33,384 nucleotides of DNA from IMG/VR virus record IMGVR_UViG_3300048062_000109, positions 1 through 33,384 of that record. The stretch is one strand, 5' to 3'. How positions within the stretch are numbered: position 1 is the stretch's first letter; each line of letters begins with the position of its first letter. Shown piece by piece: positions 20,690-28,985 of this stretch. This DNA comes from a virus. Below the pieces are notes generated by a model. The model did not search any database and was not told the origin of the DNA. It saw nothing but the letters and a program-made list of their open reading frames with translations. The position numbers and the translations under genes are program-made.

Positions 20690-20708
20690 TACCACAACAC
20701 CACAGAAA

Positions 20709-21671
20709 ATGAACAACGGAATTAACTACACAGAGATTTTTGAGAACGACCAACACGTTCAGAACGGAAACTACCACAGAGGACGTGTAAACGGATACCA
20801 CTACACATCACGTGTCGGTGTGATTGACTACCGCAAAGGAGCAAAGAATACTGACATCGCTCAACTGAAATCAGTAGACCGCAGAAACCTTACAATGCTT
20901 GAGACAGGCGATGCTGAATGCAAATTCGGTATTGGGTTCGAGGTCGAGAAGAATCGTTTTTCACGTGGGGCAGTACGTAACACACCGCTCTTCGCAGGAT
21001 TCGAACGTGACTCATCTTGTGGGTACGAGGCAGTTAGCAACATCTTGCCTTTGTTACCTGCAGGCCAATGGAGAAACAAGGTATTCTCAATGATGCACGA
21101 TGCACGTAGAGTAATCGAGGACTCTTACTCGCCATCTGACTATCGTTGTGGAGGTCACGTGACCTTGTCTTGCGAGGGTATGACAGGAGAGGAATTATTC
21201 AACGCTACACGTGAGAACCTTGCAATCGTGTTCGCTTTGTTCCGCAAGCGCTTAGGCAATCGTTACTGCAATGCTAACCCACGTATGGAGACCAATTTTA
21301 GAGGTACACGCTACGTGGCAGTACAACAGAAATCCAACGTGATTGAGGTACGCCTTGTGTCACGCTTTCAATCGGTTAAGCAGATGATGAGACGTTACGA
21401 ATTGTTCTACACGATTATGGACTTCAGCATCAACAATCCAAATGGCAGTCACGCATCATTGCTCAAAAAGGTTCGTCCGATTGTCAAGTCTATGTACAAT
21501 GGCGATGAGGCCAAGACTGATGAGATTCTTGAAATCGCAAAGCATTTCAACAAGTACATCAAGACAGGCAGAATCAATCGTGGGGTCATCAACTTCGTTG
21601 ACCCTATGAGACGATTGGATGCGGAAAGCCACTACGACAGAGACCTGCTGAGAAACGGGTACAGAGCGTAA
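20709..21671 (+). CDS. Phage amidoligase (ATP-dependent COOH-NH2 ligase)
   Basis: With the ATG at 20709 this is a 320-aa protein of the amidoligase (glutamine synthetase-like fold) family, which makes amide or isopeptide bonds. Visible signatures: the strand CKFGIGFEVEK with paired Glu (residues 71-81), DSSCGYEAVSNILPL (101-115), the RCGGHVTLS motif (146-154), and a conserved RKRLGNRYC helix further on. An in-frame upstream start at 20643 exists, but it would overlap the previous gene and put palindrome copy 4 inside the reading frame. 20709 follows the site as other early genes do. Phage amidoligases are linked in the literature to glutamine amidotransferase and AIG2/gamma-glutamylcyclotransferase partners, and such a fusion is encoded 2.2 kb downstream. 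The substrate is unknown: perhaps a cell-wall or protein modification. Confidence 0.75.
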   Translation: MNNGINYTEIFENDQHVQNGNYHRGRVNGYHYTSRVGVIDYRKGAKNTDIAQLKSVDRRNLTMLETGDAECKFGIGFEVEKNRFSRGAVRNTPLFAGFERDSSCGYEAVSNILPLLPAGQWRNKVFSMMHDARRVIEDSYSPSDYRCGGHVTLSCEGMTGEELFNATRENLAIVFALFRKRLGNRYCNANPRMETNFRGTRYVAVQQKSNVIEVRLVSRFQSVKQMMRRYELFYTIMDFSINNPNGSHASLLKKVRPIVKSMYNGDEAKTDEILEIAKHFNKYIKTGRINRGVINFVDPMRRLDAESHYDRDLLRNGYRA

Positions 21672-21683
21672 GCAGAACGGGTA

Positions 21684-21699
21684 GTGTCCTCAAGGACAC
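21684..21699. repeat. 16-bp palindrome, copy 5 (GTGTCCTCAAGGACAC)
   Basis: Flanked by GTA/TAC, which makes a longer hairpin (about 21679-21704 allowing a G-U pair). It begins 12 bp after the amidoligase stop and ends directly against the hammerhead ribozyme. Both halves carry the C/G variant. Confidence 0.9.
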
Positions 21700-21704
21700 T
21701 ACTC

Positions 21705-21755
21705 CCTGTCCGCAGGTGTGTGCCTGCGCTGATGAGACCAAAAGGTCGAAACAGG
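21705..21755 (+). ncRNA. Type III hammerhead self-cleaving ribozyme
   Basis: All core elements are present in order. Stem III 5' strand CCTGT (21705-21709) is followed by C21710, making the canonical GUC cleavage triplet. Stem I is CGCAGG/CCTGCG with loop TGTGTG (21711-21728). Then come CTGATGA (21729-21735), stem II GACC/GGTC with an AAAA loop (21736-21747), GAAA (21748-21751) and the stem III 3' strand ACAGG (21751-21755). Every helix pairs perfectly and every invariant core base is present. Cleavage is predicted after 21710, between the amidoligase gene and the downstream membrane-protein gene on the sense strand. Ends in stem III define type III. Confidence 0.92.
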
Positions 21756-21784
21756 TAACATTAATTTATTTAAATCAACATTTT

Positions 21785-21997
21785 ATGAAATCAATTTTAG
21801 AAACCACAGGAAAAGTAATCGCAGTATTAACCGCTTTATTTGTCTACACCTCAGCAGGACGTTTACTATACGCCTTGTACGGGGACTTAAGCCACTCGTT
21901 TGTGTCGTACTTGTACTTCACTATCGTGTGCGGATTCATCACGTTCTTGATGTTCGCATCGGGTTCATTGTTCTACCACGAGTTATTCAAAAAGTAA
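21785..21997 (+). CDS. Small two-span membrane protein
   Basis: A 70-aa protein from the ATG at 21785 with two hydrophobic segments: VIAVLTALFVYTSAGRLLYA (about 11-30) and YLYFTIVCGFITFLMFASG (about 42-60). No family recognised. It is the first gene after the hammerhead ribozyme; its stop overlaps the next ATG by one base. Possibly a host-membrane-acting early protein (superinfection exclusion is one idea), without direct evidence. A longer upstream frame would translate the ribozyme and is rejected. Confidence 0.65.
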   Translation: MKSILETTGKVIAVLTALFVYTSAGRLLYALYGDLSHSFVSYLYFTIVCGFITFLMFASGSLFYHELFKK

Positions 21998-28846: not shown

Positions 28847-28985
28847 ATTAGTGTCTTCAAAGACACCAAAGAAAAAGCGTATGATGTGGGTTACCGTTCC
28901 AATGTCCTGCAGAACACGTAAAGAGAAAGATATTATCATTCTCGACCTTATCAATACATTGGAGCAACAAATTAAAATTAATTAG
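28827..28985 (+). CDS. Small basic protein, 52 aa
   Basis: An ATG at 28827 opens MWKTIYKLVSSKTPKKKRMM, then WVTVPMSCRTRKEKDIIILD and LINTLEQQIKIN. An internal ATG at 28881 (or 28878) would give about 34 aa. It fills the gap between the nuclease and the SSB-tailed gene; the 20-bp overlap with the nuclease end favours coupling. Function unknown. The 16-bp palindrome lies inside the longer form. Confidence 0.5.
   Translation: MWKTIYKLVSSKTPKKKRMMWVTVPMSCRTRKEKDIIILDLINTLEQQIKIN
28851..28866. repeat. 16-bp palindrome, copy 11 along the map (GTGTCTTCAAAGACAC)
   Basis: It begins 4 bp after the exonuclease stop. It is intergenic if the small downstream ORF starts at its inner ATG, or coding (V-S-S-K-T) if it starts at 28827. 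Confidence 0.9.

Follow-up and report, generated by a model that had tools for sequence, protein, structure and literature searches.

The question raised by this locus is what a putative self-cleaving RNA, with a hairpin directly in front of it, does between two early genes of a phage. The window, i.e. the whole stretch of DNA analysed (33,384 nucleotides), is a piece of 33.4 kb from an uncultured tailed phage with early genes on the plus strand and late genes on the minus strand. Its replication protein is related to those of phages of Flavobacterium and other Bacteroidota, and its nearest named relative is MW202828, a podovirus-like genome with no annotated host. Mechanically called ORFs were used throughout, and all features of the locus given below are on the plus strand. 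As the sequence-only reading had it, the ribozyme is placed between two co-directional early genes. The upstream one (20700–21671) has 28 relatives of 48–93% identity and ends with a TAA stop codon (21669–21671) located 7 nt before the hairpin. Its name, amidoligase, given in the same reading, is suggested by the motifs EVEKN and CGGHVT only, as Pfam and PHROGs searches lend it no support. The downstream gene (21785–21997, start codon at 21785) encodes a 70-aa hydrophobic protein, for which family searches in Pfam and PHROGs gave no match, and is preceded by an A+T-rich leader (21756–21784) similar to the leaders in relatives.

A complete type III hammerhead is found at positions 21705–21755. 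Every core base is present, the fold is exact, and the coordinates given in the sequence-only reading proved right when checked against the sequence. The comparison with the Rfam hammerhead III model, proposed together with them, aligned Hammerhead_3 (RF00008) over its full length with 44.7 bits (E = 8.3e-7, whole-window search); the curated cut-off of 48.5 bits, which is a library rule and not a structural criterion, is not reached. Stem III is open, its 5' strand (21705–21709) being paired with 21751–21755, and stems I and II are closed by loops, which makes the ribozyme type III by both Rfam alignment and fold. The cleavage triplet GUC (21708–21710) is of the NUH type, and the sequence and Rfam alignment predict the cut after C21710. 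It is followed by stem I with the loop UGUG(UG) (21711–21728), which would form the 5' end of the predicted downstream product, by the core segment CUGAUGA (21729–21735) and by stem II, GACC-AAAA-GGUC (21736–21747). The last segment (21748–21755) comprises the core GAAA (21748–21751) and the 3' strand of stem III (CAGG), with the last A of GAAA paired with U21709. The invariant core CUGANGA...GAAA is thus intact, and Rfam alignment and fold agree on the stems; covariation among homologues, given below, holds the three helices. The window contains one hammerhead copy.

Directly 5' of the ribozyme stands an 11-bp hairpin with a UCAA loop (GGGTAGTGTCC-TCAA-GGACACTACTC, 21679–21704), which is supported by the fold, by its palindrome family and by flush-hairpin statistics. 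Stem III begins on the very next base, as had been noticed from the sequence. RNAfold of 21679–21757 returns exactly this hairpin and the three-way hammerhead, stem III following the hairpin without any unpaired base, at -38.3 kcal/mol (z = -4.9; none of 200 shuffles folded as well). When the context is longer (21650–21790 and 21672–21764), a competing structure has the lowest energy, which makes co-transcriptional folding relevant. The RNA between the two early genes very probably cuts itself. An intrinsic terminator was considered for the same hairpin and rejected: the hairpin is followed by CCUGUCCGCA with no U-run on the plus strand, and the terminator scan lists none here. In the fold of 21672–21710, GCAG after the stop codon (21672–21675) can pair with CUGU of stem III (21706–21709), which would allow the 3' end of the upstream product to be closed by its own sequence after the cut; this pairing is present only in the window and in L002.

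The inner 16 bases of the hairpin (21684–21699) are the lineage palindrome GTGTCCTCAAGGACAC, and 5 further pairs lengthen it outward. The palindrome AGTGTCYTCAARGACACT has 14 matches within 3 mismatches in the window against 0.02 expected, two sites being matched on both strands. With at most 1 mismatch, GTGTCN6GACAC is found at 14 sites in the window and at 0 in the reversed sequence, and it repeats through the window and nearly all relatives. The coupling of ribozyme and palindrome claimed in the sequence-only reading stands as far as the flush, extended hairpin built on the palindrome is concerned; it does not hold for the palindrome as such, which was rejected as the conserved partner. Most copies (219 of 279 distinct ones) have no hammerhead beside them, MW202828 has its own palindrome in 14 copies but lacks a hammerhead, and in L004, L013, L014, L017 and L011 unrelated hairpins replace the palindrome at the orthologous site with the ribozyme retained. 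The hairpins at this site may be unrelated or compensated (e.g. GGGAGCAGAGATGCTCCC vs. GGGAGTAGAGATACTCCC). At least 3 extra outward pairs are formed by 53 of 60 ribozyme-flanking palindromes vs. 28 of 219 other copies (Fisher P = 1e-28, inflated by relatedness). Other phages have other hairpins, e.g. GGGGCUUCGGCCCC, or repeats of their own (L158, L113, L178), and in L097 three type I hammerheads have one repeated palindrome as their stem III, while a type III has it as its flush hairpin. In phages with a repeated palindrome the flush hairpin is often built around that palindrome.

The ribozyme is kept behind the same gene in most of the 28 relatives, i.e. the records obtained by a search with the upstream protein, and the order in most of them is stop codon, hairpin, hammerhead, about 25 A+T-rich bases and ATG. 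Rfam matches at E ≤ 0.01 are present in 22 of the 28 records (up to 3 per record), none of them over the Rfam cut-off; with scores lying just under it, routine annotation misses this lineage. Core changes occur in some relatives, namely U for the core base A9 in L010 and U.U in place of the G10.1-C11.1 pair in L011, L012, L023, L004 and L013; the changes in L010, L011 and L012 may weaken activity. The U.U variant recurs elsewhere (L105, L017, L018, L024, L027, L011 and others) and goes together with GUA or AUA triplets (25 of 31 non-G-C/G-U cases vs. 26 of 192 others).

In L003, L015, L016, L024 and L025 the gap after the upstream gene holds no hammerhead and contains other structured sequence instead. 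L003 (10969) and L015 (10984) share an element, a hairpin with the loop UCAGAAACGG followed by ATTTGGTGGTAGAAAC, which has no match in Rfam. tRNA-like minihelices, consisting of an acceptor stem and a T arm with inserts of 11–18 nt, were found at L022 9893–9934, L144 7681, L166 2446 and L025 15531, and also in the post-gene gaps of L016, L024 and L025, several with a hairpin just upstream; they occupy the hammerhead position of relatives or other gaps. These minihelices are possibly RNase P or RNase Z processing sites standing in for the ribozyme. A hairpin is present in 6 of 12 such non-canonical cases, some of which are probably true tRNAs or chance; with so small a count the tRNA-like replacement with its own flush hairpin is only a lead.

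In a broader search, the pattern CTGATGAGNNNNAAANNNCGAAAC, which fixes just core bases, a single stem pair and a portion of a loop, is found in at least 119 stretches of IMG/VR. A stricter type III pattern is found in 59 stretches of bacterial genome contigs, mostly named Patescibacteria, these contigs being metagenome bins in which phage DNA is possible. A regex-plus-pairing scan of 2.07 Mb of fetched loci revealed 359 hammerheads (288 type III and 71 type I), or 223 and 55 distinct ones after collapse at 80% identity, in a sample that is non-random and small for type I; the same scan of reversed or complemented sequence of equal size gave 0. Covariation was assessed on 64 distinct diverse homologues picked by unpaired conserved letters only. 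The pairs of stem I are formed in 62–63 of them and the three inner pairs of stem II in all 64, where independence predicts 40–70% for most pairs; inner stem III is paired in 62–64 of 64, and as many as 44 double-sided changes occur per pair. All three stem II pairs left free by the pattern are formed in 120 of 121 pattern matches (5% by chance). Conservation is strong in loop I (UGNGUR) and loop II (NAAA), in part because the search pattern required both.

The genomic placement of the hammerheads is also distinctive. Only 9% of them lie inside an ORF of at least 80 aa, compared with 55% for random same-strand positions, and 46% vs. 6% have a start and a stop codon near on both sides. In loci with at least 4 hammerheads every copy is on one strand. 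Topology, placement and covariation all agree with mRNA processing.

Several further occurrences were noted. L133 (2276–9477) and L139 (1780–9973) carry 10 and 8 hammerheads, respectively, most of them type I, in one-strand arrays that extend over about 7–8 kb of phage DNA. Patescibacteria contigs (L179–L237, e.g. L193, L222 and L184) concentrate type III hammerheads with the same loops and often with flush hairpins. Rfam matches were obtained in 14 of 287 sampled genomes of one Patescibacteria phylum vs. none among 200 from the phylum to which L207 (Henriciella) belongs, and one genome, G033, has 7 hammerheads over several contigs. The cultured Flavobacterium phage elemoE (L239, MT497078) carries an unannotated type III hammerhead on the minus strand (28912–28968), which closely precedes a start codon and scores 36.3 bits (E = 2.4e-6) when 401 bases are searched. 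In the INPHARED phage collection, neither near (megablast) nor short distant searches at the DNA level gave a homologue of the hairpin and ribozyme of the window.

What is conserved beside the ribozyme is an RNA hairpin of any sequence directly 5' of the type III hammerhead. A hairpin was counted if it had at least 6 bp and ended 0–7 nt before stem III, a rule which includes some chance hairpins, and no search pattern included the hairpin. By this rule it is present in 20 of 21 distinct lineage cases, in 89 of 119 distinct IMG/VR cases and in 50 of 83 distinct cases from bacterial contigs, and the same test 45 nt further upstream gives 29%, 18% and 19%, respectively. An independent test against dinucleotide shuffles yields 86, 74 and 64% for the three sets vs. 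about 20%; relatedness within phage groups inflates the P values. The position profile of the hairpins has its peak adjoining stem III and is down to the background level at distances of more than about 8 nt, and at random points in 504 co-directional gaps without a hammerhead a hairpin is found in 19%. The hairpin is specific to one side of one topology: it occurs on the 5' side of 157 of 223 type III hammerheads (70%) and on the 3' side of 67 (30%), while for type I the numbers are 8 of 55 (15%) and 14 of 55 (25%). About 30% of type III hammerheads have no hairpin under the rule. Phage hammerheads and their clustering were already known; a report of the hairpin rule did not turn up in our literature search.

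The difference between the two topologies suggests an explanation. The open stem III of type III does not survive cleavage, which would make the upstream product end single-stranded, and an added hairpin is needed; in type I the closed stem III remains on the upstream product and no added hairpin is needed. In both cases the upstream cleavage product would carry a hairpin close to its 3' end. We therefore consider it probable that hairpin and type III hammerhead constitute a two-part RNA-processing module, which would cut the early mRNA and shield the 3' end of its upstream part. The hammerhead would cut the polycistronic early mRNA after C21710 during transcription, and the hairpin 5' of stem III would then be located 6 nt from the 3' end that the cut leaves on the upstream message. 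There it could protect this message against 3' exonucleases as a terminator hairpin or a REP element does, and we infer that expression of the genes would be affected. The downstream message would begin with a 5'-OH and the stem I hairpin. The repeated palindrome of the phage may have been reused as ready-made hairpin material.

That the arrangement is kept in relatives and in many unrelated phages suggests that it trims long messages into separate ones with protected cut ends. More tentatively, and with rather less confidence than doubt, the pair may be a general "cut-and-cap" 3'-end-forming module, which would replace terminators in many phages and in Patescibacteria mobile or chromosomal elements and in which one hairpin could be exchanged for another and, at some sites, one processing signal as well (tRNA-like minihelices for the ribozyme).

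The main alternative is that the hairpin is a folding aid: it would keep the upstream coding sequence from interfering with the ribozyme, or stabilize the active fold by stacking on stem III, and whatever it does for the 3' end would be incidental. The zero-nucleotide junction of hairpin and stem III in the window, the shortness of stem III (3–5 bp) and the existence of competing folds with upstream sequence all fit this explanation. However, it predicts hairpins beside type I hammerheads as well, and these are not seen in the same kinds of phage (the above 8 and 14 of 55). Gaps of several nucleotides between hairpin and stem III are common, which speaks against a strict need for stacking. We regard a mere folding aid as unlikely.

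It is improbable that the module mainly serves the downstream gene, by stripping off the upstream leader and giving a 5'-OH stem-capped message. Stem I is indeed at the 5' end of the predicted downstream product, with the start codon about 30 nt past the ribozyme, and in the cultured Flavobacterium phage the type III hammerhead stands directly before the start codon without a clear hairpin. Nevertheless, the 5'-side hairpin is left unexplained, and a 5' hairpin on the downstream product, present in type III (stem I), is absent in type I, which makes it less likely to be the shared purpose.

Quite improbable is also that a phage protein, e.g. a regulator, binds the palindrome as a DNA site, which would stand beside the ribozyme as a by-product. 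Many copies are located in genes or have no extra pairing, some are in coding sequence, and 24 of the 219 copies away from ribozymes contain C.A mismatches at inner positions; for such copies this reading may be true. It does not explain the ribozyme-flanking copies, which are selectively lengthened as hairpins and which relatives swap for hairpins not belonging to the repeat. Finally, that the hammerhead is a decayed or inactive passenger, as the core changes in a few relatives might suggest, is very improbable, given that every core base is intact in the window and covariation is strong over 64 diverse homologues.

Protection of the upstream 3' end by the hairpin, with the ribozyme providing the cut, thus appears to be the preferred reading. 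The role of hammerheads in bacteria and phages has been called an open question (PMC6155905), and their enrichment near phage genes was noted with the reason not known (PMC10085705). The hairpin accompanies type III and not type I, which links the ribozyme to protection of the upstream 3' end and makes its role accessible to a simple test.

The sequence-only reading, which mentioned that hammerheads are known in some phages, was right in this but understated the earlier work. Perreault et al. described in 2011 hammerhead clusters that flank prophage genes on one strand, with tested examples that cleave, and proposed that long transcripts are processed by them into single-gene messages (PMC3088659). 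The similarity to our loci consists in several one-strand hammerheads flanking genes, found in relatives (up to 3 per lineage record) and in L133 (10) but not in the window, and in the proposed transcript processing. The difference is that other phage lineages are concerned there and that the portions of that paper available to us do not report the 5' hairpin rule, the word "terminator" being absent from them and "hairpin" appearing in two unrelated uses. A literature search on the 5' hairpin rule, on hammerhead processing of phage mRNA and on hammerheads of Patescibacteria, with subscription papers mostly outside its scope, yielded nothing relevant beyond PMC3088659 and reviews. Theta (HDV-like) ribozymes, which adjoin phage tRNAs, are likewise self-cleaving RNAs for phage RNA processing, but they belong to another ribozyme class and have tRNA ends as their target (PMC10879173).

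With the type III hammerheads of the satellite RNAs sTRSV and sLTSV the ribozyme of the window shares the core, the three helices, the GUC triplet, the open stem III and the loops on stems I and II. In contrast to them, it is intergenic in a DNA phage and not part of a circular RNA, its loop II has 4 nt, and a 5' hairpin is flush with stem III. Messages with a 3'-terminal hairpin are also known from intrinsic terminators and from REP-type 3' stabilizing hairpins. Our locus resembles them in the position of the hairpin; it differs in having no U-run and in a 3' end that would arise by predicted self-cleavage rather than by termination. If this is true, these phages form the 3' ends of their mRNAs without terminators or host nucleases.
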